Shown: positions 9,226-32,665, counted from the stretch's first letter. The stretch is 32,669 nt of DNA from a virus (IMGVR_UViG_3300031841_001141:1-32669), one strand, 5' to 3'. Program-made: numbers and translations. Notes: generated by a model not told the origin, from the letters alone.

Positions 9226-9396
9226 TTCTGTCTATCTCCTTCTATAAATAATATTTTTTCAAGAGCCATTTATGTCATGCTCTGCATCTGCTACTTATTA
9301 TTTATTTTCCATGTCTTGTTAGTAGGTATCAAGACAGTAATCGTATCTTTTGCCTGGTCAAGTTTAACCCCCAGACCTAGGAATAGGGTCGTAATA

Positions 9397-14471: not shown

Positions 14472-14634
14472 TGTTTTTTAATTGTACAAGTAACGCATCA
14501 GTTGCAGCATCTGCTGCTTTTTTCATAGCTTCTTTATTACTTATTTTTAATTCCATCATATTGTTTTGTACCCACTCGCCATAGTACAAACCATCTTTAT
14601 CTAGCTGTTCTTTATCAAATTTAGTCAGAGCCAT
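14464..14634 (-). CDS. Small ORF, 56 aa, between lysozyme-like and 741-aa genes
   Basis: An ATG at 14634 opens a frame reading MALTKFDKEQLDKDGLYYGE, ending LLVQLKNNE with TGA. It fills exactly the gap between its neighbours, overlapping the upstream gene by 14 nt and the downstream one by 8 nt. The product is charged and helical, with an Ala-rich end. Function is unknown. The perfect fit in the operon is the best evidence that it is real. Confidence 0.65.
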   Translation of the reverse strand: MALTKFDKEQLDKDGLYYGEWVQNNMMELKISNKEAMKKAADAATDALLVQLKNNE

Positions 14635-15457: not shown

Positions 15458-16413
15458 TATCTCTTAACACCTGCTCTCATAAGATTAGCTAAGTCTGCTA
15501 CTGTAGCTGCACCTCTACTTCTATCAGCTTCAAACTCTTGTTGTTGTCTAGCTGCTTCTTCTCTAGGTGCAAATACTTCTTCTTCTATACCTGCTAAATC
15601 TTCTTCAAGCTGTTCTGCATCTGGTTGCTCTGCTGGTGTACCAGGTATTACTGTTCCACCCATAGGTGTTGATGGGTCAAATGCTATTCTTCCTGGTGTA
15701 CCACCTGCAAGTCCTGCAACTTCTTCATTAAATAAACCTATTCTTGCACCTATCTTTTGTGTAATATATTCTTTCTCTTCTTGTGATAATGGAGCTCCCT
15801 TTCTTGATTTAGACTTAGCTAATAAGTCATCTACTAAATCATCTAGTTGCTCGTTCTCAATCTTAGGTGCTTTTGTTGTAGCAGCTTTCCTTACAGAAAA
15901 ATCTGTTCTAAGTATTCCTAAACTCTGTACCCAGTCAAACTTACCACCATTGTTCATACTAAACTCCATAAGTCTTGTAATACCTTTAACAAATTCTTCA
16001 TCTACCATAGAACCTTGTGTCTTAGTTAAGTCAATTAAACCTATGCTTGACATTTGATTTTTTAATATAATACGAAGTGATGGTGCTATATCTCTAGCTA
16101 CCTCTCCTGGCATATAAGGAAAATAAATAAACTTATAACCTTTATCTGTTAGGTATTCTTCTGCATCTACATCTACTGTTCTAGTTACAGGAAACCCTTT
16201 AGCTTTATCCATACCAGTAACTTCCATCTGGTATTTACTTTGGAAACCTTCTCCTAGTGGTCTTTTGTTATCTAAATCGCCACTAAGTAAATCTACTACC
16301 CATTGTGTTGCAGTATCTGCACTATCTGGTGTAACATCTGTACCAGGAATAATAGGTCCTGTAACTCCTCCTACACCTCTAGGTAATGTGTAACCTTTTG
16401 TATCTTCACTCAT
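15457..16413 (-). CDS. Virion-associated hypothetical protein (318 aa)
   Basis: The N-terminal 30 residues are Gly/Pro-rich and flexible (YTLPRGVGGVTGPIIPGTDV). The centre is compact and mixed (YKFIYFPYMPGEVARDIAPS). The C-terminal 70 residues run from a Pro-rich patch (GTVIPGTPAEQPD) into a strongly charged helix (QLEEDLAGIEEEVFAPREEA), likely coiled coil. No catalytic motif is seen. It lies between the giant 2068-aa gene (8-nt overlap) and the lysozyme-like gene, so a role in the same internal assembly is inferred. Confidence 0.6.
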   Translation of the reverse strand: MSEDTKGYTLPRGVGGVTGPIIPGTDVTPDSADTATQWVVDLLSGDLDNKRPLGEGFQSKYQMEVTGMDKAKGFPVTRTVDVDAEEYLTDKGYKFIYFPYMPGEVARDIAPSLRIILKNQMSSIGLIDLTKTQGSMVDEEFVKGITRLMEFSMNNGGKFDWVQSLGILRTDFSVRKAATTKAPKIENEQLDDLVDDLLAKSKSRKGAPLSQEEKEYITQKIGARIGLFNEEVAGLAGGTPGRIAFDPSTPMGGTVIPGTPAEQPDAEQLEEDLAGIEEEVFAPREEAARQQQEFEADRSRGAATVADLANLMRAGVKR

Positions 16414-19400
16414 CTGCTAAATCTCCTATACCAAACTTAGTAATCTCATTATAAAACACATCATTAAACACAGGTAGAAATTCTGGAGTTTCTTCAATTA
16501 GTGTTGCACCATATCTATATAACTCATCACGAACTGCTTGTGCTTCCTGTGAAGTCTGTGTTCTTAACCATATAATAGCATCTTCTCTAAGTGGTATCTC
16601 TTTACCTACTTGTATTCCTTCTAATACACTGTTTCTATAATCTAAGTATTTAGACATAGGTTCGTATAAACCTAGCTGTTTAAACCGAGTATCTTCTATA
16701 GCTTGTTCTAGTATTGGTATAACTAAATCCCAATCAAAGCTATCTGGTATCTCTTTACCTGGTAACTTAGTAGCTACTTCTGCTGGGTCCACTTGATATG
16801 CTAATGGGAACATCTTTCTTAATGTAAGTTCTAGTTCTGCTTTCTCTATCTTTTGCTCATTAGGACTATATCTTTGTGCATCCCACTTAGCTGCTGCTCT
16901 TTCCATCATTGCTCTTTCTACTAATGATGCTGCGTATGTAGCAGAACGCCAGTAAAACTCTTCTTTATTTAATGGTGTTATGTTACCTAATCCTTTTTGT
17001 ATTCCATAAGATGTGTAATCTACTTCGCCACTACCTAGCTTGTCATAGAAATACAGTATGCTAGAACCATAATCTTCATACAACTCTTTGTTATCTAACA
17101 AGAACTTATACTCTGGCTTTGTTCTAGCCATAGGTCCACTCTCTGATATAGACTTACCTTTTAGCTGTAATGATGCAGATGTAAATGCTGTTTCCATATC
17201 GTATATATCTAGTCCTAGTAACCTAACTACTTCTAATGTAGCTTCATAATCTGCTTGTTTACTACCCATAGTTAGTGCATAGTGTTCTCTTAGGTCTTGG
17301 TAAAAACCATGTATTATTCCTAGCTCAACAAAGCTATTCCATACAACACCAGATGTTTCATTGTCTTTACCATACCAATCGTTAAATGTATCGTTATCTG
17401 TATCTATACGATATAACACATTTAGTTTAGGAACTAATGGATTAACATTTCTATCCCATGCTTTTAGTTGGAATATGTTATCTCGTATAACTGCTGCTGT
17501 ATTAAACATAAACTCTGGGTCATCTGCTTGTTCTGGGTATAGCATTGCAGCTATCTGTACAGCTTGTGTAGTAGCTGTCTGGTATAAATCCTCATCAAAA
17601 CCTTTAACACCTAACTTACTTGCGATAGCGTTAAACATATTCTTACCAGTAGCTGGTATTGTTTCTTCTAATACTGCTTCTCCAATTAAATCTTTAATAT
17701 CTCCAGTACCACTTTCAAATGGCAAACCAAATTGGAATATAGTTCTTTCTAACAACCTTCTAGTTTCTGGATTATCTCTAGTCATTGCACCAAGTGGTAA
17801 AGCTACAACTGGTCCTAATGGTGGGAATAAACCACCACCAGCTACACCTAATGCTGATATAGGTAAACTTCTTTTAAGTATTATATTGCTATCTTCTATA
17901 CTTATGTCATCTCTCCAGGTACCTTCTCCTTCTGATTTAACATAACTTTCTAAAGCTGTACCACCTACAGGTATAATTAAATATCTTTCTCCAAACTTAT
18001 CAGAATATATATAGTTGTTTTCTATACCTTTCCTATATGCAAAACTTACCTGTGCTAATGCTCTAGGGTTTGCTGCACCTAGTTGTGTCCATCTACCTAA
18101 CACTTCTCTATATGCTTCAAAAAAAGGTAATCCTACTTTGTATGCTTCTGCTAGGTAACCTCTTTCTAGTAAGTTATACAACAATCTATTATGCAACTCT
18201 AGTGCGTATTGTGATGCTGTTTTGTTTATGTCATTAAATGTCATATTGCGTACAGTGTCTGTTCTAATATCATCTAGGTCTAACATTGTGTGATAATCAA
18301 TCTCTGTAAACTCTGATATTAAACCACTCTTCTGTGCATTATTAACTACTAACTTTCCAGACTTACTATCTACCATTGCAAGTATTCCAGACCTTTGCAT
18401 AAACTCTGCGACATCATCATACTTAGCATTACCCATGCCTAACACTTTCCTAAGTTCTTTTATAGTTGGTGTAGGGTTTTCTTTTATTAATGCTTTAAAG
18501 TTATTTGTTATATCAAATGTATTTTTACCTGTATCTGCATGTAATTCTTTTAATGCTTTAATAAATTGTTGGTCTTGTGATTTATCTAATTTACCATCTA
18601 CTAATACATTTCTTCTAGGAACTGATGAATAGTATGCACCTATCTTTGTATTCTCATCTCCTAATCTAATACCTCCTGCTGTTTCTATAGAGTATGCTTT
18701 ACCTTCTGCATTGTTTAGTAACAAGTCCATTTCTAACTGTTGTTTAGATGTAGCTTGTAATACTCTTGGTGCATATTTATTATCTGCATTGTAAGCAACA
18801 AATGTAACAGCATCATCAGTAACTTGTAATCTCTGTCGTACTGCTTTCTTCATTACTTCTTCTATTTGCTCAAATGGTATTTCTGCATCTGTAAGATTTC
18901 TTTTAACTGATGCAAGTAAATCTGCTGGTAAATTAACTACACTCTCTGGGTCATAATGTGCATCTAATATATCTTGTAAACCTTTGCGTGTAGCAAACAC
19001 TAAGTTGCTTTCTATAAAGTGATAGTATGCTTGTTTAAATGTTGGTATTCGTGATAGTGATGCTTCTGCTTGACCAGCTACAAAGAACAACGCATCCATT
19101 AAATCTGCCCATCCTTGTGCAAATCCTTTACCTGTAACTTTCTTTACACCTGGTACTTCAAATGGTAAATCTTCTAGTACTTCTAGCATGTATGGTGTAA
19201 TGGTTTCTTTTATCTTCTTTTTGTTTATTTGCTTTGCAACATCTAAACTTCTTACATTTGTTTTACCAACCATACCTTGTGCAATAACATCTAGTAGGTC
19301 TTGTTGATTAGCAGTAAAATTAGATATAAACATCTTGTGATGTCTAACAAAATCTATAAAATCTTCTTGTGTTTTAACAACTGGTATAACTTGTGATGCT

Positions 19401-22400
19401 TTATCTACGCTTCTAATAGATAATGTCTTTCTGTTTAAATCTACAATCTCATCCATAAGATATGGTGTTCTCTGTATTAAATCTACAACTTCTGCATCAC
19501 TAAGGTTTTTCTTCATAGCTTGTGCTACAACTGGCATAAATGGGTCATGTGCCATCTGTGTAATTAGATAGTCTATATACGCTTCTACATAGTTGTCATC
19601 AACATCTAGCTTTGTAGCTCCTGGTGCTACTTCTTCTCCAGTTGCATACTTAGGTATCTGTTCCCAGTCTCCTCTGTTTTTTCTAAATACAGATGTAAAG
19701 CGTGGGTCTCTTTCATACAAGTCTTGTACTTCTGGTAATCCAAACTTAGAATTGTTTTGTTTTAACGCACCTAAACTTTTTCTTATAAAGTCTGGGTACT
19801 TCTCATCTAATACTTTTGCACTTGTTCTAAATGGTCCTGTTAGTGCAGTTAATGGTTTATAGTCTGGGTTTTGTGCTTGTATTAATTTAACCATTGCACC
19901 ATTTGGGTCGTTCCATATTAGCTTTAAATACTCCCATGGGTCTCTAAATATAGATGCTAAACCTCTAGCTGACATCCTTAAATTACCATCTGTTGTAATT
20001 TTAAGTGGGAAAGCTAATCGTGTAATAAGCTGTAGTGGCATCCACGCTCTACTAATAAAAGTAAATGCCATATCTGTAGCTTTAAATGGTATTCTTTCTG
20101 CACCATACTTAAATAATACTGATGGGTCTTTTAGTCCATCTGCTATCGCACCTTTGAGTTCACGACCTAATGGTGTAGATGGGTCAAAGAAAGTACCTGC
20201 TTTACCTTCATTAGCTGCTTGTCTAACTGCATCTATGCTTTCTTCATAACCATTTTTTCTAAATGTTTTGTTTCTTAATCTTCTACGCATAGATGTGTAA
20301 CGCAATGTAGCTTTTATATCTGGTACATTGATTGTCAAATCCATAGCTTGACCTGCCATAGCTAATGTATTTTGTATAGCAGCAGCTTTATCTGTTTCTG
20401 ATAACATAGCATTGTTTAGTTGTGCTCTGCTTATAGGGTCTAATCCATCTTGTAACAACTGTCTATCATAAAACTGTTCACTTAATGTAGGTTTATATGC
20501 TCTACCTTTTTCACTAAATCCTCTCACATCATCTAGATGTGTAGATAAGAAATCTGTTATCTCATTGTCTGACAAACCAAATACATATCGTAGTTGTAAT
20601 GCACCTTCTGTTTTAATTAACTTGTCATAAAATACTTCTTGTGCTCCTCTATAGTTTTTATTAAATATCTCTGTATAAAATTCTTTTACTAAATCATCAA
20701 TCTTGTTTTCTGGTATAGAAAACATATACCCTGTTTTAATAAAAGTATCTACTGCTCTATCTACTTCTGTAAGATAAGCCCATGGTCTTGATGGTAGTCT
20801 TGGGTCTGTACCACCGAATACATCTTTAAAACTAGAAGCTAATGTTCTTACTGGGTTCTTAGACTTTCTACCACCACCACGCATATAAGTAGCTGTATAT
20901 TGACTATCTGTCATAGCAGCATACATGTTATCTAAAAAGTTATCGTTTAATACTTTTGCTTGTATATGAAAATCATTAGCACTTGTTAAGTTATTACCTG
21001 CAAATCTAACATCAGATACTAAACCACCAGTCAAACTTTCTTTTATTATGTCAAATGTTTGGTCTGGGTTATTAACAACTTTCATAGCCATGTTAGGACT
21101 AAACCCATTTCGTGATAGATATAGCATAACTGGAGCACCTTCATCTACAGCTTTAGTTATTTCATCTGCCATAAGTTGTATTGTTGTATCTTTATCTATC
21201 CAAAAATCTGCTGCTTTACCACCTGCTTGTATGTATTCATCTAGTTCTCTACCTACGCTTGTAAGTGTTTTACTTGTTTGTGCAGACCTACCACCTATAC
21301 CTACGCCTGGTAAAACAAATGTTGGGTCTGTAACTACCATTAGTCCTAAGTTACCCATAAATCCTATCCATGCGTTCCAACCATGTTTAGGGTCAAAGTT
21401 TAAATCTGATATTTTATCTTGTTCTGCTGATAGCAAAGCATTAAATTTAGTTTCAAACTCTTGGTCTGTCATACCAGTTGTTTGATATGTATTAACTAAA
21501 TTAGCTATTTCGCCTTCTGTTTCTATTTTTATATCTGCAATTACATTGTTAAGTGGACTGTATTCTCCACCTAATGAACCTGTAAGTGTATATCTAATCA
21601 TATCTCCAGGTGTTGCAGGTATGCTATATTTCTTGAAACCTTCTCTAGTTTGCATTGCTTCTTGAAAATATTCATTGCTACCAAAGTATGTCTCTATACC
21701 ATTAGGATTAGCAGAACCATACAACTGATTAACTGTATCTATATACGCATCTAATCTTTCTTGTGTAGTTGGTTCTCTAGTTTCTCCATCTTGTTGTATC
21801 TTTAAGTTCTCTGCATATACGCTAGGAAAATATTTATTTATAGTATCTATATCTGTTTGTGCTAATTTAAAATCTTTTTTTGTATTTAAGTAAGTTAAGT
21901 TATCTGTAACAGCAAGTGGTGCTAGGTTTAATACTGTCTCTGGCAAATCCCAACCATATCTTTTACCTTGTGATAATGCACCCCTAACAGCTCCTGCTTT
22001 TAACCCAGCAACAAAAGATTTAAGTTTCCAAGATAAAGGTATCTCATTATCTTCTGTCTCTGGGTCTCCAACAAACCTAGAAAAATCTCTATCTAACTCT
22101 TTACCTTGTTCTCTAGCTAATTTTTCTAACTCTGCTTTACTAGCAACACCATAAGAGTTTATAGCTCCTACTTGAAATCTTTGATACCAAGCGTTAAGAC
22201 CAACTAATAAACCATTAATAGCTGTACTTTTTCTTAACTGACTTTCTCCAAATAATTCTTTTTGTGTTTCAGTATTAACTTGTTTAGTTTTTGTATATGC
22301 TTCTTTAGCTCTATCCCAATAACTTTGTGTTCTTTTTCTGTTGTAATCTTCTTTTTCATCTGCAATATTATTGTTAGTTTCTTTCCATAAGTTGTAATAC

Positions 22401-22612
22401 TCTCCTGCACTTAATCCCATAGATGCAGCAGCAATAGGTAAATCACTATCTTCATTTGGGTTCATTGATTGAAAATCTAATGTTTTCTTACCTAGTATTT
22501 CTAACTCTGCATCAGACATAGTGTTCTTAGCTGTGTTAAGTGCTTGTTGGTCTATGCCTTTTTCCTCTTGGGATTTAAGCCACTCTTGACCCCATCTCAA
22601 ATAAAAGTTCAT
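16406..22612 (-). CDS. Giant virion protein (2068 aa), function unknown
   Basis: This is the longest gene, about 19% of the window. It is uniformly coding with no frameshift. The protein is largely helical, with a basic-hydrophobic patch at about residues 850-910 (SRAWMPLQLITRLAFPLKI, then RMSARGLASIFRDPWEYL). A hydrophobic Gly/Pro-rich stretch lies at about 1575-1605 (LPISALGVAGGGLFPPLGP, VVALPLGAM). I see no transglycosylase, protease or polymerase motif I would trust. In podovirus-type phages proteins of 1000-3500 aa in this position are ejected with the DNA (T7 gp16, N4 vRNAP), so an ejection protein is the best inference. The ATG overlaps the upstream stop as TAATG. Confidence 0.7.
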   Translation of the reverse strand: MNFYLRWGQEWLKSQEEKGIDQQALNTAKNTMSDAELEILGKKTLDFQSMNPNEDSDLPIAAASMGLSAGEYYNLWKETNNNIADEKEDYNRKRTQSYWDRAKEAYTKTKQVNTETQKELFGESQLRKSTAINGLLVGLNAWYQRFQVGAINSYGVASKAELEKLAREQGKELDRDFSRFVGDPETEDNEIPLSWKLKSFVAGLKAGAVRGALSQGKRYGWDLPETVLNLAPLAVTDNLTYLNTKKDFKLAQTDIDTINKYFPSVYAENLKIQQDGETREPTTQERLDAYIDTVNQLYGSANPNGIETYFGSNEYFQEAMQTREGFKKYSIPATPGDMIRYTLTGSLGGEYSPLNNVIADIKIETEGEIANLVNTYQTTGMTDQEFETKFNALLSAEQDKISDLNFDPKHGWNAWIGFMGNLGLMVVTDPTFVLPGVGIGGRSAQTSKTLTSVGRELDEYIQAGGKAADFWIDKDTTIQLMADEITKAVDEGAPVMLYLSRNGFSPNMAMKVVNNPDQTFDIIKESLTGGLVSDVRFAGNNLTSANDFHIQAKVLNDNFLDNMYAAMTDSQYTATYMRGGGRKSKNPVRTLASSFKDVFGGTDPRLPSRPWAYLTEVDRAVDTFIKTGYMFSIPENKIDDLVKEFYTEIFNKNYRGAQEVFYDKLIKTEGALQLRYVFGLSDNEITDFLSTHLDDVRGFSEKGRAYKPTLSEQFYDRQLLQDGLDPISRAQLNNAMLSETDKAAAIQNTLAMAGQAMDLTINVPDIKATLRYTSMRRRLRNKTFRKNGYEESIDAVRQAANEGKAGTFFDPSTPLGRELKGAIADGLKDPSVLFKYGAERIPFKATDMAFTFISRAWMPLQLITRLAFPLKITTDGNLRMSARGLASIFRDPWEYLKLIWNDPNGAMVKLIQAQNPDYKPLTALTGPFRTSAKVLDEKYPDFIRKSLGALKQNNSKFGLPEVQDLYERDPRFTSVFRKNRGDWEQIPKYATGEEVAPGATKLDVDDNYVEAYIDYLITQMAHDPFMPVVAQAMKKNLSDAEVVDLIQRTPYLMDEIVDLNRKTLSIRSVDKASQVIPVVKTQEDFIDFVRHHKMFISNFTANQQDLLDVIAQGMVGKTNVRSLDVAKQINKKKIKETITPYMLEVLEDLPFEVPGVKKVTGKGFAQGWADLMDALFFVAGQAEASLSRIPTFKQAYYHFIESNLVFATRKGLQDILDAHYDPESVVNLPADLLASVKRNLTDAEIPFEQIEEVMKKAVRQRLQVTDDAVTFVAYNADNKYAPRVLQATSKQQLEMDLLLNNAEGKAYSIETAGGIRLGDENTKIGAYYSSVPRRNVLVDGKLDKSQDQQFIKALKELHADTGKNTFDITNNFKALIKENPTPTIKELRKVLGMGNAKYDDVAEFMQRSGILAMVDSKSGKLVVNNAQKSGLISEFTEIDYHTMLDLDDIRTDTVRNMTFNDINKTASQYALELHNRLLYNLLERGYLAEAYKVGLPFFEAYREVLGRWTQLGAANPRALAQVSFAYRKGIENNYIYSDKFGERYLIIPVGGTALESYVKSEGEGTWRDDISIEDSNIILKRSLPISALGVAGGGLFPPLGPVVALPLGAMTRDNPETRRLLERTIFQFGLPFESGTGDIKDLIGEAVLEETIPATGKNMFNAIASKLGVKGFDEDLYQTATTQAVQIAAMLYPEQADDPEFMFNTAAVIRDNIFQLKAWDRNVNPLVPKLNVLYRIDTDNDTFNDWYGKDNETSGVVWNSFVELGIIHGFYQDLREHYALTMGSKQADYEATLEVVRLLGLDIYDMETAFTSASLQLKGKSISESGPMARTKPEYKFLLDNKELYEDYGSSILYFYDKLGSGEVDYTSYGIQKGLGNITPLNKEEFYWRSATYAASLVERAMMERAAAKWDAQRYSPNEQKIEKAELELTLRKMFPLAYQVDPAEVATKLPGKEIPDSFDWDLVIPILEQAIEDTRFKQLGLYEPMSKYLDYRNSVLEGIQVGKEIPLREDAIIWLRTQTSQEAQAVRDELYRYGATLIEETPEFLPVFNDVFYNEITKFGIGDLADE

Positions 22613-22965
22613 TAGTTAAACCTATATCTTAGTTCTGGGAACCTTTCAGTAATTAACTGTTTTGTAATCTGTGTCTCTTGCACAGGTGCAGCTACTTGCA
22701 TATCTTGCTCTGGAACAAAACCAGGTTGGTCTGGTAATTGTGTTGGAGCGTTAAATATGTCGCCAACCATTGGCATTGTACTTGCTCCTGCAAGTATAGG
22801 GGATTGAGTTTGTGGCTCTACAGCATCTATTTGATTACCTAACGCTGTGGATTGCCCTGTTGGGTCTCCTTTCGCCCTATTTGGTACTACTAAATCTTGG
22901 TATGCACCATCAACTGCCATATCAGTTGCTTGTTTAAACGACTTACTTTTTCTACCACCTGGCAT
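22612..22965 (-). CDS. Small structural protein (117 aa)
   Basis: I place the start at the ATG of MPGGRKSKSFKQATDMAVDG because AAGGAG lies 7 nt upstream; an upstream in-frame codon would give 125 aa. The N-terminus is basic and the middle is Pro/Gln-rich and probably disordered (QSPILAGASTMPMVGDIF, then PTQLPDQPGFVPEQDMQ). The C-terminus is helical (ITKQLITERFPELRYRFN). No known domain is visible. It lies between portal and giant virion protein, so a portal- or core-associated role is likely. Confidence 0.6.
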   Translation of the reverse strand: MPGGRKSKSFKQATDMAVDGAYQDLVVPNRAKGDPTGQSTALGNQIDAVEPQTQSPILAGASTMPMVGDIFNAPTQLPDQPGFVPEQDMQVAAPVQETQITKQLITERFPELRYRFN

Positions 22966-23200
22966 CTTCATCTCCTTGTTGTAAATCAAATCCTAATGAT
23001 ACATTTAAAAATACATTAGGTATTGGTGTTGGAATAATGTATGTACCTAATGGTATATCTCCAGTCTCTACATCTGGTCTTACAATAGGGATAATCTCTA
23101 TGACTGTTTCTTCTTCTACTGGAAACGAATTAAAATCCCAATCTTCTTGATTAATTATATCTATAAATTTTTCGTTAATATCTTCAAATGGTCTAGCCAA
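22952..23200 (-). CDS. Small acidic protein (82 aa)
   Basis: The protein starts MARPFEDINEKFIDIINQED and is acidic, with a Pro/Ile-rich second half (GTYIIPTPIPNVFLNVSLG). It overlaps the end of the portal gene by 8 nt and the start of the next gene by 14 nt. There is no membrane segment, as the hydrophobic stretch is too short and Pro-rich. Function is unknown. A small head-completion protein is possible. Confidence 0.55.
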   Translation of the reverse strand: MARPFEDINEKFIDIINQEDWDFNSFPVEEETVIEIIPIVRPDVETGDIPLGTYIIPTPIPNVFLNVSLGFDLQQGDEDARW

Positions 23201-24950
23201 CTGGTACTCCTGGTGGTATTCCTGGACCTGCTGCTAATTGTTCTGGTCCACCTAACTGTGCAAGTACAGAAGCAATGTCTGGTTCTGCTGGAGCTTGTGC
23301 TTGTGCAGCTACCTCTTGTGCCTGTACTTCTTCTTCTGTATAAAACTCATCTAGTATTTGTGTCATGTTCTGTGGATTTTTTCTAATTTCTTTAGCTGCA
23401 AGACTTGCTTTGATGTTACCTTGTGCTGCTTGTGCCATTAATGCTTCAAATAACACAGTCTCTGCTTTCTCTGCATTTACTCTGTTCTGTATTTGAGATA
23501 TGTTATCTAAACCATCAAGGTTCTCTTGTAATGTTTGCATATCTATTACGCCTTGTTGTTTTAATTGCAACCCTGTAATAATTTTCTGTGGCTCATCAAA
23601 CCCTGCCATAACTCCATATACTCTTCTTGTTTTATATACTTCTGCTATATCAGAGCTAGGTACATAAGTTTCTTTAAACGCTGTACCATTTCTAAATCCT
23701 GCGATAGGTTTACGCATACCACCATACATAACCTCATCCCACTCTAGTCTCTTGCTATCTATTTCTTCTAACGCATCCTTCATTACTGTTTGATATTCTC
23801 TTACATGTAATGATGATGATTGACCTAGTTCCTCTAATCCTCTACCAGTAACAAACGCATTTGGCGATTGTCCATCATCTGCTACAGGATATGCAGAACC
23901 TAAACGCAAGTGTCGTTCTAATCTATCTATCTGTTGGAACAACTGATAAGGTAAGTTGTTTACTGGTTTAGATACTTGACTACCTGGTGTCAAATAGTTT
24001 ACAGCGAACCTACCCTTTCTATATTGTCCACTTTCTATCTCGCCAATGATGTTGGTTTCTGTAAACACAGCATCTTCCATTGCAATGACAGATAGAATAT
24101 TTATTTTCGCCATGTTAGCCATTAAGCCAATAACATGATGAAATTGTCCTTGCATTTGGTCAAAACTATAGCGTTTAGCTATTACAAATCTTGGTCCAGA
24201 TTTAAGTGGATTAGGAATAAAATCTAATATTATTTTGTTTTCTGGTAGAAATACATAAGTACCTTCTTCATCATAGTATTCTGCAACTACTTTACCTGTA
24301 CCATCTGCATTAGCCCAGGTCTTATCATAACTAGATAGATAAGCCATTGTATTGTATTCACTGCTTACTTCATCAAGTATTACACTTGCATGTTTTGGAT
24401 ATTGTCTAGCTAGTGTTGCGTGTGGTACTCGTTGTAATATTGCTAATTCTTTTGGTTCCTGGTCAATACCAAAATGTCCAGGATAACAAAGGTATGGGTC
24501 TCTTAGTTCTGCTACAGGATATGGTATTCCATTAGCATCTTTTTTTTCTTTTAGTACCCATACAGCAAATCCATAACCAGGTAACCATCTACCAGCTTGT
24601 GGTAATTGCTTATCTAGTTTCTGTATGTCATCATACGCAGTTACTATTCTTTCTAGTTTTTCTGCTCTCTTAGTAGCTCTCTCGCTATCCTTGTCGTTAA
24701 ATATATCTACTTTTAAATCTGGTGCTCTACCTATCTTTTGTGCAAATCTTTCTAATGCAGACATAAGTAGGTTAGGTGCTGGTAGTTGTCTGTAATCCAT
24801 ATCTCGCATGTCTTTACCAAGTAATGCTTTTATACCATCTGCACCACCATTAAGTATTGCTCTGATGTTATGTTTATCTTGTGCAAGTTCAGAATTTAAT
24901 TGTCTAAGTTCGTAAACTCTGCTGTAAAGCTCATCTGCTGTTTTTACCAT
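23193..24950 (-). CDS. Portal protein (585 aa)
   Basis: This forms the dodecameric ring at one capsid vertex through which DNA is pumped. Evidence is the position directly after the large terminase, the length, and sequence features of portals: an N-terminal helical region (LYSRVYELRQLNSELAQDKH), a basic wing segment, a beta-rich mid-part (DPYLCYPGHFGI, VVAEYYDEEGTYVFLPE), a long helical segment at residues about 340-420, and a disordered Gln/Ala/Pro-rich tail (AQEVAAQAQAPAEPD). I prefer the ATG at 24950 (MVKTADEL), which has GGAG 6 nt upstream and overlaps the terminase stop as TAATG. A TTG 9 nt further upstream is less likely. Confidence 0.8.
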   Translation of the reverse strand: MVKTADELYSRVYELRQLNSELAQDKHNIRAILNGGADGIKALLGKDMRDMDYRQLPAPNLLMSALERFAQKIGRAPDLKVDIFNDKDSERATKRAEKLERIVTAYDDIQKLDKQLPQAGRWLPGYGFAVWVLKEKKDANGIPYPVAELRDPYLCYPGHFGIDQEPKELAILQRVPHATLARQYPKHASVILDEVSSEYNTMAYLSSYDKTWANADGTGKVVAEYYDEEGTYVFLPENKIILDFIPNPLKSGPRFVIAKRYSFDQMQGQFHHVIGLMANMAKINILSVIAMEDAVFTETNIIGEIESGQYRKGRFAVNYLTPGSQVSKPVNNLPYQLFQQIDRLERHLRLGSAYPVADDGQSPNAFVTGRGLEELGQSSSLHVREYQTVMKDALEEIDSKRLEWDEVMYGGMRKPIAGFRNGTAFKETYVPSSDIAEVYKTRRVYGVMAGFDEPQKIITGLQLKQQGVIDMQTLQENLDGLDNISQIQNRVNAEKAETVLFEALMAQAAQGNIKASLAAKEIRKNPQNMTQILDEFYTEEEVQAQEVAAQAQAPAEPDIASVLAQLGGPEQLAAGPGIPPGVPVG

Positions 24951-26878
24951 TATCTCCAACTATCCAAATCTATGCCTAGTCCTTCGTAGTTACTAAAACT
25001 AGGTTGGTATTCCATACCCATTGTAGCAAGTCTTTCCTTTTGTAAACGCCTTATTGTTTTCATTGGAAACCAACTTGCCATAACAATGTCAGATTTAGTA
25101 CCTACACTTCTACTCTTGTTTTGAGCAGAACTAAAATATACTAACTGACTTCTGTATAAGTTTACCTTCTCTTGTGCTTCAAAGCTACGATAAGGTAAAT
25201 TTATTAGTTTATTAGCAAACAATGGTCTCATAGCTGTAACACCATAGATAGGGTCATGCTTGTTACCATAAGTCTGTGTACCTTCTAAAAATATACCATG
25301 CTTTGCTGCAAACTCTCTAATTGATTTATCTTGTCTTATTGCTCGTTGAAAACCATTTTCTTCTATAACCCAATGTGCAAGATTGTATTTAGTAAACCAT
25401 TTTTGCATAATCTCTAATGCTTTAGGAATACCACCACCTAATGAGTTTTCCATATCTATCATATACAAAGTATCTTGTTCCTGGTTATAACCCCATAAGA
25501 ACGCAGCTTGGTACCCTGTTGATGATGGGTCAAGACCTGCAATTAATCGTACATTGTGTGGTATGTGTCCTATATCTCTACCCTGGTCTCTGCATTGTTC
25601 TATCTCTTCTGCATCAAACAAACTCATACCATCTGGCATTGCTACATTAAGATAAACCATTTCGTATATAGCTCTACCACCTGTAGTTTCAGCAGCTTTC
25701 TTTCTATCCATTAACCACTTGTATGTACGCTTACTAGCCCATAACATACAGTCTTGGTGTGCTTCGTTTTCCCAATCAGACTTAGTACAAGCTATATCGT
25801 GTGCTTGTTCTACTGTTGTACTCCAGCTTTCGTTATCTACTAAGTGCGAATACAAATCATCATAATGCTGCCTAGAACCAATAACTACCATAGCTGTATG
25901 TTCCTCTTTACGACTAGATAATGTTGTAGTCCACCAGTTTCTTGTGTTCTCTCTTGATGCTGGTTGCATAGTAGAACTGTGGTCCTCAATGTCATCAGCA
26001 ATAATAATATCGCAGTCTCTTGATAAAATCTTACCACCTCTACCAATACCAATCATTGTTGGAGATTTAATACCTGTAACTGTTCGTGTACCTACAGTAA
26101 AACCATTTTGAGACCAAGACTTAGATGATTTTGTTTTAGGTTTAAACTTTGCTCCAGGACCACATATCTCTTCTATAAGTAACTCGTTATTTTCTAACTG
26201 GTCCATTACAGAAGATACAGAGTTCTTAGCAATATCTTCGTTACCACCTACCCACATAATTCTTATGTTTGGGTTATTGCATATAAGCCATACTACAAAA
26301 TGTATAAGCAGCTCTGTTTTACCATGTCTAGGTGGGCTAAGTATCATGTGCTGTCCACCATTATCAATAGCATCCATAATGCTTTCTATCCACTTAGTGT
26401 GAAACTCTGGTGTCTCAAATGCAACGCCTTGTTCTGTTCTAAAGTATCGTTGTCTAAACTCGTTAAAATCTTTTAGTGTTTCTTCTGCTACCTGTGGTAA
26501 TGACCAGTCCTCTTGTTCTTGTTCTGACTTTATATCTTCTAAGTATGCCTGGTACGCCATAGATACAGCAGCAGTTGTAGTGCCAAGTATCTTAGCTACT
26601 TCTGTTAGTGTTATTGATTTTTCGTATATCTCTTGTGCAAGTCCAGATTGTTTAATATCTTCATAAACCTGTCCTCTTCTAGATGCGACATTAGGTTTTT
26701 GTGATGGTATGTCTAAGACATCATCTTCTTGGGTCCACTCTTTACCAGCTTTCCTAGCTCGTTTCTTTTGCTGGTTTATTCTTTCGTAACAACGCTTACT
26801 ACAAAACTTTTTCTTTTTAGGTGGTAATGGTCTATGACATCCTGCTGCGTAACAAAGTTTATTTGCCACGCTTATCAC
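24950..26878 (-). CDS. terL: Terminase large subunit with N-terminal zinc-finger and HTH extension (642 aa)
   Basis: This is the ATP-driven DNA-packaging motor and nuclease. The motor has Walker A SPPRHGKT (residues 181-188) and Walker B DIIIADDIED (290-299). The RNase-H-like nuclease has likely acidic residues D450 (AGLDPSSTG), E506/E507 (VIEENGFQ) and D597 (KSDIVMAS). In front is an unusual extension: a Cys4 finger (C9, C14, C26, C30, with FCSKRCYERI) and a helix-turn-helix-like segment at about 78-113 (ITLTEVAKILGTTTAAVS). No separate small-terminase gene is visible nearby, so this extension may supply DNA recognition. The start is GTG; another GTG is at 26869 and no ATG is near. The preceding 30-aa ORF overlaps it. 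Confidence 0.9.
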   Translation of the reverse strand: MISVANKLCYAAGCHRPLPPKKKKFCSKRCYERINQQKKRARKAGKEWTQEDDVLDIPSQKPNVASRRGQVYEDIKQSGLAQEIYEKSITLTEVAKILGTTTAAVSMAYQAYLEDIKSEQEQEDWSLPQVAEETLKDFNEFRQRYFRTEQGVAFETPEFHTKWIESIMDAIDNGGQHMILSPPRHGKTELLIHFVVWLICNNPNIRIMWVGGNEDIAKNSVSSVMDQLENNELLIEEICGPGAKFKPKTKSSKSWSQNGFTVGTRTVTGIKSPTMIGIGRGGKILSRDCDIIIADDIEDHSSTMQPASRENTRNWWTTTLSSRKEEHTAMVVIGSRQHYDDLYSHLVDNESWSTTVEQAHDIACTKSDWENEAHQDCMLWASKRTYKWLMDRKKAAETTGGRAIYEMVYLNVAMPDGMSLFDAEEIEQCRDQGRDIGHIPHNVRLIAGLDPSSTGYQAAFLWGYNQEQDTLYMIDMENSLGGGIPKALEIMQKWFTKYNLAHWVIEENGFQRAIRQDKSIREFAAKHGIFLEGTQTYGNKHDPIYGVTAMRPLFANKLINLPYRSFEAQEKVNLYRSQLVYFSSAQNKSRSVGTKSDIVMASWFPMKTIRRLQKERLATMGMEYQPSFSNYEGLGIDLDSWR

Positions 26879-28498: not shown

Positions 28499-28590
28499 AA
28501 ACCATCTGTACCTTGTTTAAACATTTATGAGAAGAAGAGAGGGTGTTAATTAATATCGTAGTTTCCACACAGAAAAAAAAATAAAAAACC

Positions 28591-28645
28591 TGTAACCCTT
28601 TTGTAACCAATGCAGTCAAAGCAGTACAAACACAGAGAGGATATT
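28591..28645 (+). promoter_or_regulatory. Early-gene leader cassette A
   Basis: An A-rich tract is followed by TGTAACCCTTTT (28591-28602), the box AGTCAAAG (28614-28621), ACAAACACAG, a GAGAGGA ribosome binding site and the ATG. This is the most degenerate of the five copies. Its stem is weak (CTG/CAG) and GTAACC is repeated. Confidence 0.6.
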
Positions 28646-29035
28646 ATGAAAGCATATAAAATCAAGAAAACATTAGTACAAGAATATGTTTCCTTTGGAA
28701 GAAATAGAGAGGATGCAATAGCAAACTTTGATTACTCACAAGGGTATGACTTTGAAAGTGTAGAAATCAATGGCGAGAGATTTACAAATGGCGAGGTTTT
28801 AGAAAGTAAGACTACAGCTGTTTCTTTTGGTACAGAAAATATAATTACTTTCCATGAGAAAGATAAATTATTTGCTAACGCTATCTGGTTAAGAAATCAC
28901 GAAGATGACATAAGAGTAAGAGGTTACGACAATGTCATTAAATTTGTTTCTGCAGACCCTATTAAAGATGAAACACAGAAAGAAAAAGTATTAGAGATAG
29001 CAAACACTTATACAAAAATAAGTGAGAGGTATTAA
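28646..29035 (+). CDS. Early protein of unknown function (129 aa)
   Basis: I choose the ATG at 28646, right after GAGAGGATATT, rather than an in-frame ATG 36 nt upstream that lies inside the conserved leader cassette. The product starts MKAYKIKKTLVQEYVSFGRN and has KTTAVSFGTENIITFHEKDK and IRVRGYDNVIKFVSADP. The first 45 residues (RNREDAIANFDYSQGYDFES) suggest a small alpha-beta fold. No motif or membrane segment is visible. It is the first full-size gene of the rightward block, so host takeover or regulation is a fair guess only. Confidence 0.7.
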   Translation: MKAYKIKKTLVQEYVSFGRNREDAIANFDYSQGYDFESVEINGERFTNGEVLESKTTAVSFGTENIITFHEKDKLFANAIWLRNHEDDIRVRGYDNVIKFVSADPIKDETQKEKVLEIANTYTKISERY

Positions 29036-29049
29036 GAAATAATTAAATT

Positions 29050-29107
29050 ACCCTGTAACCTTTTATTAGGTTGCAGGGTCTAAACAATACAAACAAGAAA
29101 GGATATT
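29050..29107 (+). promoter_or_regulatory. Early-gene leader cassette B
   Basis: ACCCTGTAACC (29050-29060) pairs with GGTTGCAGGGT (29069-29079) around an 8-nt loop, one G-U pair in 11. TGTAACCTTTTA is in its left arm and loop. GGTCTAAA overlaps the stem end, and ATACAAACAAG and AAAGGA precede the ATG. Confidence 0.7.
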
Positions 29108-29854
29108 ATGAAACAATTAGAAGCAAAGGTAGAGTTTAAACAAGCTCAATTTCCTAAGAAAGATATTAAACCAGAACAATGGCTTAGTCTCTTAGTGGAT
29201 GAGTGTTTAAACATACTGCAAAGCAAAGGTATCAATACAACCAACAATGTAGGTACAGGTATTGAAATACACATTAGTGATACCAGAGGAAGAAAGCGTG
29301 TAACCAACAGAAATGGTGGGTCTCATGCAGTAGGGCTTTGTTATGGTATTAGCAGCAGTACAGGAAACAAGAGAGTTATAGAGGTTGATAGAGAAACAGA
29401 TAATCTCTGGGATACTATAGACACAGTTGCTCATGAGGTAACACACGCAGTCTTAGAAGAAGGCGTTGGTCATAAGGGTATGTTTCCAGAGATTGTTAAG
29501 AGCGTGTTTAAACTGGGTGGAAAACCAACAGCAACAGAACCAACAGAAGAGATGAAGGAATTGTTTTACGATTTCTTAATTGCAAATGGTGGTTACCCTC
29601 ATGTTGCGTTTAGACCTAGACACAACAAGCAAACAACACGCATGGTCAAATGCTGGTGTACTGAATTTGATTGCCCAGCAGGTACAGAGAAATCAATGCT
29701 GGAAGGCAAAGGTATGATATTTAGAATATCATCAGCAGTGTTAGCACCCAGAATAGATGGTACTGTAATGTTTTACAGAGACATCACTTGCCCAGCGTGT
29801 CAAGCACCAGCAGCGTACGATAAGGAAACAATACCAGAGAGCTTATACTCATAA
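29108..29854 (+). CDS. SprT-like zinc metalloprotease with C-terminal Cys cluster (248 aa)
   Basis: The zincin motif HEVTH (residues 109-113) sits in the helix DTIDTVAHEVTHAVLEEG, and GH at 121-122 gives a likely third zinc ligand (GVGHKGMFPEIVKSVFKLG). The following GGKPTATEP matches the conserved segment of SprT-like proteins common in actinobacteriophages. Residues 182-231 hold CWC, C189 and CPAC (228-231), a probable second zinc site. Cellular Spartan/SprT proteins act on DNA-bound proteins; a similar role in phage DNA metabolism or host-protein removal is inferred. There is no signal peptide, so it is cytoplasmic. The start follows AAGAAAGGA. GTTTAAAC occurs three times inside the gene. 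Confidence 0.8.
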   Translation: MKQLEAKVEFKQAQFPKKDIKPEQWLSLLVDECLNILQSKGINTTNNVGTGIEIHISDTRGRKRVTNRNGGSHAVGLCYGISSSTGNKRVIEVDRETDNLWDTIDTVAHEVTHAVLEEGVGHKGMFPEIVKSVFKLGGKPTATEPTEEMKELFYDFLIANGGYPHVAFRPRHNKQTTRMVKCWCTEFDCPAGTEKSMLEGKGMIFRISSAVLAPRIDGTVMFYRDITCPACQAPAAYDKETIPESLYS

Positions 29855-29861
29855 TATCCAG

Positions 29862-29899
29862 AGAGCTAAGGGGTTGTTTAAACAAGCAACCCCAGCTCT
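29862..29899 (+). terminator. Long hairpin after the metalloprotease gene
   Basis: AGAGCT, two unpaired A, and GGGGTTG pair with CAACCCC and AGCTCT (13 bp) around a loop containing GTTTAAAC. An A-run rather than a U-run follows, so intrinsic termination is doubtful. Its right arm shares CTCT with the stem of cassette C, so the two structures exclude each other. Confidence 0.55.
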
Positions 29900-29962
29900 T
29901 AAAAAAAAGGTGTAACCTTTTTGGATAAGAGTAAGTCAAAGTAATAACAAAGAAAGAAGGAT
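29896..29962 (+). promoter_or_regulatory. Early-gene leader cassette C
   Basis: CTCTTA (29896-29901) pairs with TAAGAG (29926-29931). Inside, AAAAAGGT can pair with ACCTTTTT. TGTAACCTTTTT is at 29911-29922, AGTCAAAG at 29934-29941, and AGAAGGA precedes the ATG at 29963. Confidence 0.7.
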
Positions 29963-30889
29963 ATGAAAGAAGAAATAAAACAAACAGTAACTAAAGGCGA
30001 AGCAGTAGATATTGCTGATGCAGAGTTATTCAACGAGACAGTCAAAGGTGTAGATTATTCTGGTAATCAACCAAGACATCAAGGTAGCGAGATATATAAC
30101 AAAGCATACAAGCCAAAGAAAGAAGCAGTAGATAGAAGCAGTTTAAACAACAAGATAACCTGCGACAACATACGAGGATGGGGCGACAACTTGTACAGTA
30201 GATTGTATGTAGATGGCGACAGATATGGCGAAGGTGTAAGAGTTGTTGGTTACTCTTCCTATGTACCAGAAAGAAATAGCAAAGGCGACAGGCGACCTAG
30301 CGAACAGTCTGGGTTTTCTATTTACTTTGATGATGAGCAGCAGGTTATTGAATTTGCACAGAAGTGTTTAGATACAATGGCTATCAAGAAAGAACGAGAG
30401 TATTTGTTTGAACAGTATGATGGTAAGCACCCAGATGTTTATAATCACTTTCCAAATATGTTGGACAGAACAATGTGTGAGACAGGTAGGTATTACTGGG
30501 ATGCTAGTTTAAACAAGGTAGTAGAGATTACCAAAGATACTGATGCAGAAATCTTAGAGCTGCACCCAGAGTACAGGACTGATGATGAAGGAAACTTTGA
30601 GCAGAGCTGGACTAATGAGAAGGCAGAAGATAAGCTCAAAGGATTGCTTAGAGGTCAAGAGTGTAACTGGACAGGGGATGACTACATGGACATCAACCTT
30701 GCTAACTTACAGACAGGTGGGTACTACACAGATGGACTTGTTGCTAGGAAAGTACGCAACCCAGAGGACAAGAGAAGAAAGATGTGGATAACAACCTTCT
30801 TCTATGTTGATGGTACAGAAACAACCTTAGAAGGTAAGTGGGATTTACTAGGGGATGGAACTCTTAGAAGATTGACATGGAAAGAATAG
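29963..30889 (+). CDS. Early protein of unknown function (308 aa)
   Basis: The largest gene of the rightward block in this window. The product is hydrophilic, rich in Asp, Glu, Lys and Tyr, and has no membrane segment. Visible segments are ITCDNIRGWGDNLYSRLYVD (about 66-85), SGFSIYFDDEQQVIEFAQKC (about 116-135), and a C-terminal beta-rich WITTFFYVDGTETTLEGKWD. I recognise no catalytic motif. The first 60 residues look disordered. It has its own leader cassette and is followed at 8 nt by GTTTAAAC. Codon use matches its neighbours. Function unknown. Confidence 0.7.
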   Translation: MKEEIKQTVTKGEAVDIADAELFNETVKGVDYSGNQPRHQGSEIYNKAYKPKKEAVDRSSLNNKITCDNIRGWGDNLYSRLYVDGDRYGEGVRVVGYSSYVPERNSKGDRRPSEQSGFSIYFDDEQQVIEFAQKCLDTMAIKKEREYLFEQYDGKHPDVYNHFPNMLDRTMCETGRYYWDASLNKVVEITKDTDAEILELHPEYRTDDEGNFEQSWTNEKAEDKLKGLLRGQECNWTGDDYMDINLANLQTGGYYTDGLVARKVRNPEDKRRKMWITTFFYVDGTETTLEGKWDLLGDGTLRRLTWKE

Positions 30890-30915
30890 AGGGATTGTTT
30901 AAACAAGGTAAAAAA

Positions 30916-30973
30916 CTGTGTAACCTTTTTGGTTACACAGTAGTCTAAGCAACAGATAAGAAAGGAAAGTAAT
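30916..30973 (+). promoter_or_regulatory. Early-gene leader cassette D
   Basis: This is the clearest copy. CTGTGTAACC (30916-30925), loop TTTTT and GGTTACACAG (30931-30940) make a perfect 10-bp stem. AGTCTAAG is at 30942-30949 and AAGAAAGGAAAG precedes the ATG at 30974. Confidence 0.75.
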
Positions 30974-31291
30974 ATGGCATTTATGGGTACTAACAATTTA
31001 CCAAAACCAGAAGAAGTTAAGAGGTGTCAATTTGGTGGCACTAACAACAGAAAGAAAGATGGTGGTTGTGGTAAGCATGTAGAAAAAACAGGGCAGATGG
31101 TACATAGTAGAACTGATGGCAGCACTTGGCATGTTTGGTTTCATCTAAATTATTGTGAGGAACACAGACATCATGTTGAAGGCGAGTACGAAAGACTAAT
31201 GGAACACACAAGAAAAGGTTTGTTTGTTGGGGATGGAAATTTCTGGGCAGATAAAGAGAAGGAAAACTACCCAGAAAGACAGGTTGTTTAA
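30974..31291 (+). CDS. Small Cys/His-rich early protein (105 aa)
   Basis: The product starts MAFMGTNNLPKPEEVKRCQF and has C18, CGKH at about 33-36, and HLNYCEEHRHHVEGEYERLM with one Cys and several His. This spacing suggests a zinc-binding fold, perhaps a small HNH-like or treble-clef domain, but the HNH signature itself is not present. GTTTAAAC overlaps its stop codon, and the next gene starts 2 nt later, so the pair is probably translated together. Confidence 0.65.
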   Translation: MAFMGTNNLPKPEEVKRCQFGGTNNRKKDGGCGKHVEKTGQMVHSRTDGSTWHVWFHLNYCEEHRHHVEGEYERLMEHTRKGLFVGDGNFWADKEKENYPERQVV

Positions 31292-31293
31292 AC

Positions 31294-31545
31294 ATGGTAA
31301 CTAAAACTAACTACAACCAGATACTTATTGATGAGGTTAAGGAAGCAGCACAGGCAACTGATGTTATGGAAATCAATAACCCTCGTGTCATAGGCATGGT
31401 CATCAATCTATTAGAGATGCTAGAGAGAGAGCCAAGCATACCAAGAAAGACATACAACTACATCAAGGTAATTGTATTAGCCAGTGTCAAAGTATTTGGT
31501 AGGAAAGATGTGGACAGTAGCTTGTTAGATGAGCTAACTGTTTAA
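31294..31545 (+). CDS. Small helical early protein (83 aa)
   Basis: The product is almost all helix: ILIDEVKEAAQATDVMEINN, VIGMVINLLEMLEREPS and YNYIKVIVLASVKVFG. No Cys or catalytic motif is present. There is no clear ribosome binding site, as expected for coupling to the gene ending 2 nt upstream. The stop TAA lies in a GTTTAAAC palindrome. A small protein-binding or DNA-mimic role is possible but unsupported. Confidence 0.65.
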   Translation: MVTKTNYNQILIDEVKEAAQATDVMEINNPRVIGMVINLLEMLEREPSIPRKTYNYIKVIVLASVKVFGRKDVDSSLLDELTV

Positions 31546-31558
31546 ACAAAGAAAAAAA

Positions 31559-31609
31559 AGTATGTAACCTTTTTCATACTAAAGAAGTCTAAGTAATAGA
31601 AAGGAAGAT
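31559..31609 (+). promoter_or_regulatory. Early-gene leader cassette E
   Basis: AGTATG (31559-31564) and CATACT (31575-31580) pair around a loop that is exactly TAACCTTTTT. AGTCTAAG is at 31586-31593 and GAAAGGA precedes the ATG at 31610. An A-run lies just upstream. Confidence 0.7.
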
Positions 31610-31828
31610 ATGGATATAAAAACAAGACAAGTCAAACTTAACTTTGAAGTAGAAGTTGATGTTGATTTGTATGTACTAGAAACACTATGTAGAGAAATCA
31701 ATTCTGTTAAAGAAGATATTGTACAACCAATAGTAAAAGACATAGAACATAAATCTATTGATGACCATTGGGTAGTAAAAGTTGTAAGGGCAACTCAACT
31801 ATTAGAGAAGCCAATAGAAAGGACATAA
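31610..31828 (+). CDS. Small early protein (72 aa)
   Basis: The product starts MDIKTRQVKLNFEVEVDVDL and is acidic, with an N-terminal beta strand and a central helix (YVLETLCREINSVKEDIVQ). The C-terminal segment HWVVKVVRATQLLEKP is amphipathic. Function is unknown. It opens a run of three genes joined by TAATG overlaps. Confidence 0.65.
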   Translation: MDIKTRQVKLNFEVEVDVDLYVLETLCREINSVKEDIVQPIVKDIEHKSIDDHWVVKVVRATQLLEKPIERT

Positions 31829-31938
31829 TGACAAACAGAAAACAAAGAAGGGCAGCTTCATCTAAGAAGAAAGGCAGAAGCCAGATACACCATAGAACTA
31901 TGGGTCAAATGTTAGAAGGAAAGGAAAATGATAAGTAA
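31828..31938 (+). CDS. Mini basic protein (36 aa)
   Basis: ATG overlaps the upstream TAA (TAATG), with AGAAAGGA 4 nt before it inside the end of the previous gene. The product MTNRKQRRAASSKKKGRSQI is over 30% Lys/Arg, ending MGQMLEGKENDK. The TAA overlaps the next ATG. Nucleic-acid binding is possible on charge alone. Confidence 0.55.
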   Translation: MTNRKQRRAASSKKKGRSQIHHRTMGQMLEGKENDK

Positions 31939-32066
31939 TGTCAGACATTATGACAGAGGAAGAGTACGAGAAGTTTGTGAAGGAAGGCGACTGGTTTTTA
32001 GATACAGAAGCCCCAGACTTTAGAGAGAAGTTACAAGCAGACATGAGACAGAGAGGAACTTTGTAA
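31938..32066 (+). CDS. Mini acidic protein (42 aa)
   Basis: ATG is in a TAATG overlap, with GAAAGGA upstream. The product MSDIMTEEEYEKFVKEGDWF continues LDTEAPDFREKLQADMRQRG and ends TL. It is strongly acidic and helical. Coupling to the preceding basic mini-protein might reflect an interacting pair. Function unknown. Confidence 0.55.
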   Translation: MSDIMTEEEYEKFVKEGDWFLDTEAPDFREKLQADMRQRGTL

Positions 32067-32070
32067 CTGT

Positions 32071-32091
32071 TGTTGTCATACATTGACAACA
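32071..32091 (+). terminator. Short hairpin between mini-genes
   Basis: TGTTGTCA, loop TACAT and TGACAACA make a perfect 8-bp stem 5 nt after the stop of the 42-aa gene. There is no U-run. TGTAAC, the core of the leader cassettes, lies directly before it, so this may be a diverged cassette. Confidence 0.45.
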
Positions 32092-32107
32092 GTAGTAGAA
32101 TAAAATT

Positions 32108-32260
32108 ATGTATATTGTGAAAGCGATTGCTATTGTAGGTGGAGATGAGACTTACACATTTGATAATAAACAAGATGCACTAGAGAAGGTACGCTGGTTT
32201 AAAGATGCAGGTGGTTTCATTGTTACAATGACAGAGCTAACCCAAGAAACAGTATCGTAG
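32108..32260 (+). CDS. Small protein (50 aa), possibly leaderless
   Basis: The product MYIVKAIAIVGGDETYTFDN continues KQDALEKVRWFKDAGGFIVT to the C-terminus MTELTQETVS, a beta-alpha-beta pattern. No ribosome binding site is visible. TAGAAT lies 6 nt before the ATG and could be a -10 giving a leaderless mRNA. The stop TAG is fused to GTTTAAAC (32260-32267). Function unknown. Confidence 0.55.
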   Translation: MYIVKAIAIVGGDETYTFDNKQDALEKVRWFKDAGGFIVTMTELTQETVS

Positions 32261-32291
32261 TTTAAACAACTATAAAAATAGAAAGGAAACA

Positions 32292-32504
32292 ATGGCTAAT
32301 ATATTTAGCACCCCAAAAGAATTAAAGACATGGGCAATCAAGTTGGCTAATGCGTGTGGTGGGCAGAAGGTTGAGAAGTCAAACATCCTTACCAAGATAA
32401 ACATGCAGAGGGTCAATGAACTATTAGGACAGTTTGAACAAGACCATACTGTAATGATAGCGAAGCAGCAGCAAGAAGAAACAAAGAAGGAGGAAGAAGA
32501 ATAG
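32292..32504 (+). CDS. Small charged helical protein (70 aa)
   Basis: The product MANIFSTPKELKTWAIKLAN is followed by NILTKINMQRVNELLGQFEQ and a Gln/Glu/Lys tail ending EEEE. It is probably one or two helices with a coiled-coil tendency. GAAAGGAAAC precedes the ATG. The stop overlaps the GTG of the next gene. Function unknown. Confidence 0.65.
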   Translation: MANIFSTPKELKTWAIKLANACGGQKVEKSNILTKINMQRVNELLGQFEQDHTVMIAKQQQEETKKEEEE

Positions 32505-32665
32505 TGTTTAGCATACAAGGACTAATCATTATGTATCTGTTTGGTTTCTTATCTGCATTTGTATTTCTATTCTTAGAAAGCATACTGCGAGACAGTTTAA
32601 ACAACTGGGGTATGTGGATTACTAAGTACAGATACAGAAAGATGATGAACAGAAGGCAGAGATAA
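32504..32665 (+). CDS. Small membrane protein (53 aa)
   Basis: A GTG at 32504 (AGGAGG 10 nt upstream, TAGTG overlap) opens MFSIQGLIIMYLFGFLSAFV, with one hydrophobic helix at about residues 4-25 and a basic tail (WITKYRYRKMMNRRQR) expected on the cytoplasmic side. An ATG at 32531 is a possible alternative start. A holin or membrane-takeover role is possible, but early location makes a lysis role less likely. A further gene begins at 32665 (TAATG) and is cut after five bases. Confidence 0.55.
   Translation: MFSIQGLIIMYLFGFLSAFVFLFLESILRDSLNNWGMWITKYRYRKMMNRRQR

Follow-up and report, generated by a model that had tools for sequence, protein, structure and literature searches.

An octamer repeat in the early genes of a phage fragment and a SprT-like zinc-ribbon protein as its candidate regulator

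The window analyzed here, a 32.7-kb IMG/VR fragment of 32,669 bases, belongs to a phage in which the palindromic octamer GTTTAAAC is a real and conserved repeat. We consider it likely that this octamer is the recognition word of a phage regulator, that its binder is a SprT-like protein bearing a C-terminal zinc ribbon, and that this protein represses its own promoter and other early promoters. The same word, or the one-letter variant GTTTACAC, accompanies this protein family in phages that are otherwise unrelated to the one under study.

Table 1. Copies of the repeat in the window and the gene proposed to encode its binder
Feature	Position	Strand	Remark
GTTTAAAC	28515..28522		long non-coding stretch heading the early block; first early gene follows about 90-130 bp downstream
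GTTTAAAC	29134..29141		within SprT-like gene (+26); retained in close relatives only
GTTTAAAC	29205..29212		within SprT-like gene (+97)
GTTTAAAC	29506..29513		within SprT-like gene (+398; Val-Phe-Lys-Leu)
GTTTAAAC	29876..29883		22 bp past stop of SprT-like gene
GTTTAAAC	30141..30148		within gene 29963-30889
GTTTAAAC	30507..30514		within gene 29963-30889
GTTTAAAC	30897..30904		8 bp past stop of gene 29963-30889
GTTTAAAC	31286..31293		overlaps TAA stop, immediately precedes next ATG
GTTTAAAC	31540..31547		overlaps TAA stop of gene 31294-31545
GTTTAAAC	32260..32267		begins on last stop base of ORF 32108-32260
GTTTAAAC	32595..32602		within ORF 32504-32665
Nine late-block GTTTAAAC	4384..26147		starts 4384, 6747, 9427, 10390, 13728, 15334, 16678, 22932, 26140
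SprT-like gene	29108..29854	+	248 aa, HExxH zincin-like part and C-terminal zinc ribbon; proposed site binder
Zinc-ribbon coding part	29627..29800	+	KQTTRMVK..C ... R.SS ... CPAC; proposed DNA-recognition domain

The repeat in the window, in relatives and beyond

The window contains 21 copies of GTTTAAAC, against a mean of 1.03 and a maximum of 5 in dinucleotide shuffles, and no other palindromic octamer exceeds four copies. Twelve copies lie in the early block (28515-32602) and nine in the remaining window, among the late genes, that is about 2.9 and 0.32 copies per kb, respectively. The first-pass annotation, made from the sequence alone, had described an excess above chance with twelve early and eight late copies; the excess and the early count are borne out, and the late count is corrected to nine. 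In 14 related records (422 kb in total), 222 copies were observed for 15.6 expected. Strong enrichment is limited to the exact octamer, as the best placed of the 24 one-mismatch words, ATTTAAAC/GTTTAAAT, is just 1.5-fold over-represented in these records; in the flanks, T is preferred before the octamer and A after it. Rfam and tRNA scans returned no matches.

One alternative holds that the count merely follows from codon usage (Leu-Asn, Phe-Lys) together with an AT-rich composition. Although 64% of the copies do sit in coding frames, this explanation is refuted and retains next to no credit because synonymous shuffles give far fewer copies. Permutation of synonymous codons left on average 0.56 intragenic copies in the early genes, where six are found, and 1.15 in the late genes, where seven are found; these counts were never matched in such codon-preserving shuffles, the control proposed at the outset (0 of 500 in either case). 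The one-mismatch words and the occurrence of the repeat at 57-62% GC argue in the same direction.

The TerL and portal proteins of the window show a distant likeness to Streptomyces phage proteins, and its SprT-like protein resembles those of actinophages and other phages. Related portals are encoded by hundreds of viral contigs; a search for portal homologues in genome contigs, aimed at identifying the host, found none. The nearest complete-looking relative (G044, 41.2 kb) has the same plan, with one rightward early operon and structural genes running leftward. No integrase, repressor or methyltransferase was recognizable among its genes, the early and accessory ones having been checked for the latter. 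Since G044 lacks an integrase and a recognizable repressor, no immunity of the L5 type is implied for the window phage. Elsewhere in the window, two minus-strand genes (504-1589 and 1596-2675; 361 and 359 aa), both matching phrog_2295, appear to be a tandem duplication.

Relatives keep the sites together with the genes, a point on which the first-pass annotation had made its reading depend. Among aligned sites, 35 of 43 in the early genes and 41 of 61 in the late genes are intact, for 12.4 and 16.6 expected, respectively, from identical background octamers. In all relatives inspected, down to 30% protein identity, the SprT-like gene ends no more than about 40 bp from a copy of GTTTAAAC, while individual intragenic copies turn over with protein divergence and density remains high. 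ct2KA10, a distant relative without SprT, has no copy at all.

Five copies of the window fall on or just past stop codons (29876, 30897, 31286, 31540 and 32260), as had been noted. Likewise, the late copy at 9427 is situated 3 bp beyond the end of gene 9437-10300, a place retained in three relatives (G008, G017 and G030), and its counterpart in G044 lies 7 bp past the gene end. Over 33 enriched records, which represent about eight gene-sharing groups, 1043 sites were sorted: 277 are intergenic, 102 overlap a stop codon as GTT-TAA-AC, and 664 (64%) are intragenic, in the Leu-Asn frame (393) or the Phe-Lys frame (271). Intergenic and stop-overlapping copies are over-represented, yet most copies are intragenic; placement at gene ends, to which the early reading had given weight, is thus present without being special. 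From this split we conclude that the gene-end bias reflects mostly codon permissiveness, the sites settling where codons allow.

No clear sigma-70 promoter was found beside the sites of the window, and a -35/-10 pair made of TTGTTTAAACAA and TGTAAC was rejected for inconsistent spacing. A separate observation concerns a leader repeated before several early genes (28570-28650, 29035-29107, 29910-29962, 30915-30973 and 31555-31609), in which an A-run precedes TGTAACCTTTTT, a sequence that often supplies the left arm of a stem-loop together with its loop; next come a stretch resembling TCTAA and a ribosome site, GGA. This arrangement is reminiscent of the start-associated sequences of cluster K.

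The repeat also extends to unrelated phages. Records of aquatic phages with 34-57% GC contain 20-44 copies each, a 14-mer scan recovered unrelated phages dense in GTTTAAAC at 42-57% GC, and one record of 57% GC (G052) has 37 copies over 30 kb. When all viral contigs were scanned for three spaced copies, 76 matches were obtained for GTTTAAAC and 4 for the reversed word. In cellular genomes, many of the spaced triple sites look like CRISPR or tandem repeats, judging by their fixed flanks; a beta-proteobacterial contig (L274) carries both the sites and SprT. Two further cellular occurrences were recorded. A Paludibacter MAG contig (JAQTUE010000004.1) has 40 copies in 8 kb with varied flanks, and SprT was not found in that stretch. 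Filamentous cyanobacteria (L276, L284, L290 and L291) have 43-60 copies per 8 kb in apparently repeat-rich DNA, and these arrays are probably unrelated to the phage system. A literature search found no report of GTTTAAAC or GTTTACAC in phages, nor any tying SprT-like phage proteins to DNA sites.

A SprT-like zinc-ribbon protein associated with the sites

Only TerL and the SprT-like protein are widely shared among motif-bearing records. The first-pass annotation had called for a search for a phage- or host-encoded regulator, and this search yielded a phage-encoded candidate, for which we infer binding: of 17 distant representatives, the SprT-like family joins 15, and the family ranked second joins 7. 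In one unselected scan, SprT or its ribbon was found in 13 of 23 enriched stretches and in none of 97 non-enriched ones. Based on these sequence comparisons, the SprT-like zinc-ribbon protein is probably the regulator that binds the sites.

The association was also approached from the side of the protein, named phages being chosen by their SprT-like protein and scored for the motif afterwards. GTTTAAAC proved enriched in Venkman (34 copies for 1.67 expected), Pan1 (10 for 0.01), R5C (10 for 0.02), Mica (4 for 0.07) and Bas97 (6 for 0.66), and Persinger and others were positive too; in Pan1, R5C and Persinger, every TTTAAA falls inside GTTTAAAC. Only in ep3 is enrichment barely perceptible (4 for 0.9). 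The actinophages are devoid of GTTTAAAC, and their most over-represented octamer is GTTTACAC, with 22 copies for 0.08 expected in Zeta1847 and 27 for 0.1 in Tweety19; it likewise ranks first in UNTPL, Maureen, 4A, Microdon and Powerpuff. Among 80 viral contigs fetched by the SprT-like protein, with the ribbon pattern among the queries and near-duplicates included, enrichment is seen in 77: the enriched word is GTTTAAAC in 34 contigs and GTTTACAC in 43. The motif is the first-ranked octamer in 40 of them, and at least three copies of both words coexist in only 2. Scored in the same way, 756 control word pairs gave a mean of 1.8 of the 80 contigs and a maximum of 18. The three contigs that are not enriched are L452, L493 and L504.

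The replacement of one word by the other bears on a further alternative, namely that GTTTAAAC, which is the recognition word of PmeI, is a target related to methylation or restriction. Strict specificity for eight bases would suit such a target, but the one-base variant GTTTACAC takes over with the type of ribbon, methyltransferase genes are confined to some of the motif phages, and none was recognized among the early and accessory genes of G044, so that we regard this alternative as very improbable.

The protein of the window matches the profile phrog_6361 (E=6.6e-12), as do other full-length homologues (1e-9 to 1e-74) and a 55-aa ribbon-only protein (9e-6); ribbon-only proteins also match phrog_34373. 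All tested homologues and the window protein therefore belong to this family of phage 'SprT-like proteases', the annotation that the homologues bear, which is catalogued with function unknown and no known DNA target. The HExxH zincin motif reads HEVTH in the window protein. With the curated cut-off of the Pfam SprT-like family (PF10263), the window protein gives no match and one homologue barely passes. A fold search with its AF2 model (pLDDT 84) returned weak zincin matches only, and structure comparison recovered neither a solved relative of the ribbon nor a match to a recognized DNA-binding fold.

The association of the motif is near-perfect, and it tracks the ribbon, not the protease. Where the protease is kept and the ribbon lost or decayed (PSA20, FP1, Vitas and Katzastrophic), neither GTTTAAAC nor GTTTACAC is found. 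Reciprocally, the motif is present where the protease is lost and the ribbon kept, as in G071, G077, G079, G081 and G083, which have lost HExxH, and in phages where the ribbon KQ(S/T)TR..K..C...R.S...CP stands alone, such as G056 with its 55-aa protein. Columns invariant in an alignment of protease-dead and intact homologues fall nearly all in the ribbon. Some motif-rich records show no SprT (G052, G055, G085 and G088), all of them fragments; G053 lacks it because of a contig break, the missing piece being where its relative G054 carries SprT. In addition, the SprT-like proteins of L296, L310, L334 and L340 have no HExxH while keeping the fold outline and the ribbon, and are candidates for natural protease-dead regulators.

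ImmA-type proteases remove repressors. By analogy, another phage or host protein could bind the sites, the SprT-like protein being a mere partner, for example a protease that removes the binder. The zincin fold lends itself to such a role, as does a weak structural resemblance to CapP, a protease that cleaves a regulator. However, the association follows the ribbon, no other family is common to motif phages, Pseudomonas phages differ according to whether they have the ribbon, and a host factor would have to span actinobacteria, alpha-, beta- and gammaproteobacteria and a cyanobacterium; we therefore give this alternative little weight. A phage-encoded candidate of another kind, a small protein with a coiled coil and an HTH, whose gene precedes that of the annealing protein (G030 28654, G044 2627), was the first to be considered and was rejected because it is absent from unrelated motif-rich phages. 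This coiled-coil and HTH protein (..SRQRVYKII..; L130 10001-10312, G044 2627-2842, outside the window) is conserved in the window clade, directly before the gene for the single-strand annealing protein, and is possibly a second early regulator.

Operator-like sites and a proposed mode of action

Of 78 loci, 43 have a site in the 150 bp preceding the SprT-like gene, where chance would give 6.2. The typical position, at the -10 box or immediately downstream of it, is that of an autoregulatory operator. Enterobacterial phages have TATAAT, 8 bp and then GTTTAAAC, 18-26 bp before the SprT-like ATG; GTTTAAAC is similarly placed in Pseudomonas and Burkholderia phages, and actinophages have CTTGCG...TTAGACT-GTTTACAC upstream of the gene. 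In several early promoter-like sequences of Microbacterium phage Zeta1847, GTTTACAC also occurs between TTGCGC and TATGAT (spacer of 17), in addition to its place after the -10 box. Copies are not all near promoters, most being intragenic.

We propose that the ribbon of the SprT-like protein binds GTTTAMAC, at sites dispersed at roughly 10-40 copies per genome, the homologues of actinobacterial phages recognizing GTTTACAC instead. Binding would be direct, with dimerization on the palindrome. From an operator located at the -10 box or immediately downstream, the protein would repress its own promoter, while further sites at other early promoters and in transcribed stretches would damp early transcription, by repression or as roadblocks. 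The zinc-protease part may exert control over the regulator, or may serve another task for which it was recruited; it is dispensable in some lineages.

The ribbon protein could also bind its sites for a purpose other than repression, be it genome organization, segregation, control of replication or repair, or targeting of the protease to DNA-bound proteins. Sites do occur throughout the genome, late genes included, several motif phages encode ParB-like proteins, and SprT/SPRTN relatives act on DNA-protein crosslinks (PMC5127644). Nevertheless, ParB-like genes are not common to motif phages, ribbon-only and protease-dead forms retain the sites, and in several groups of phages the promoter of the protein itself bears an operator-like site, which makes such a role unlikely, if less so than that of a mere partner.

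Early repression by the ribbon protein, our preferred reading, has a wider version that we hold tentatively, doubting it slightly more than we believe it. The protein would represent an unrecognized class of phage regulator, in which a protein of metalloprotease fold reads GTTTAAAC or GTTTACAC through its zinc ribbon, acts on dispersed, self-regulated operators in phages that are unrelated to one another and infect actinobacteria, a cyanobacterium, and alpha-, beta- and gammaproteobacteria, and would be the missing immunity repressor of the temperate phages of clusters AZ and EH. On the preferred reading, a widespread phage family catalogued without function would gain a probable target and function, and an explanation would be at hand for a motif that recurs among phages of four or more bacterial groups. 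We anticipate that homologues of two specificities will provide a ready set for working out a recognition code of zinc ribbons, and a testable candidate can be named for the immunity repressor of clusters AZ and EH.

Comparison with known systems

In ImmA/IrrE and CapP-CapH, a zinc protease is tied to DNA-binding regulation, and protease and repressor are separate proteins. In the system proposed here, both domains would share one chain, from which the protease can be lost.

Powerpuff (cluster AZ) forms stable immune lysogens, and its repressor has not been identified (PMC8758107). This phage carries a SprT-like gene (gp49) and 13 copies of GTTTACAC in 19.6 kb, several of them directly after -10 boxes. 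We predict that gp49 is its immunity repressor; since Powerpuff combines immunity, a repressor yet to be identified and the motif/SprT system, the hypothesis is directly testable.

The first-pass annotation had likened the repeat to the stoperators of mycobacteriophage L5. Those of L5 and cluster A are 13-bp asymmetric sites oriented with transcription and bound by a monomeric repressor that combines HTH and stoperator domains (PMC9283540). Both systems share the use of one phage protein, a candidate here, and of 20-plus short near-identical sites, some apparently at promoters and some between genes, that are densest outside structural genes (PMC9283540); 21 sites were counted in the window, and 20-44 in related and unrelated phages. 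The likeness thus holds for dispersed, conserved, regulator-type sites densest in early genes, and fails in the detail. Here the site is an 8-bp palindrome, hence without orientation, or GTTTACAC, whose orientation is mixed (19/8 in Tweety19, 16/6 in Zeta1847 and 9/12 in Microdon); most copies are intragenic; the shared protein is SprT-like with a zincin part and a zinc ribbon, unlike the helix-turn-helix repressor of L5; and the window clade shows no sign of lysogeny. On this comparison, the GTTTAAAC system appears to resemble L5 stoperators in function while standing outside their class.
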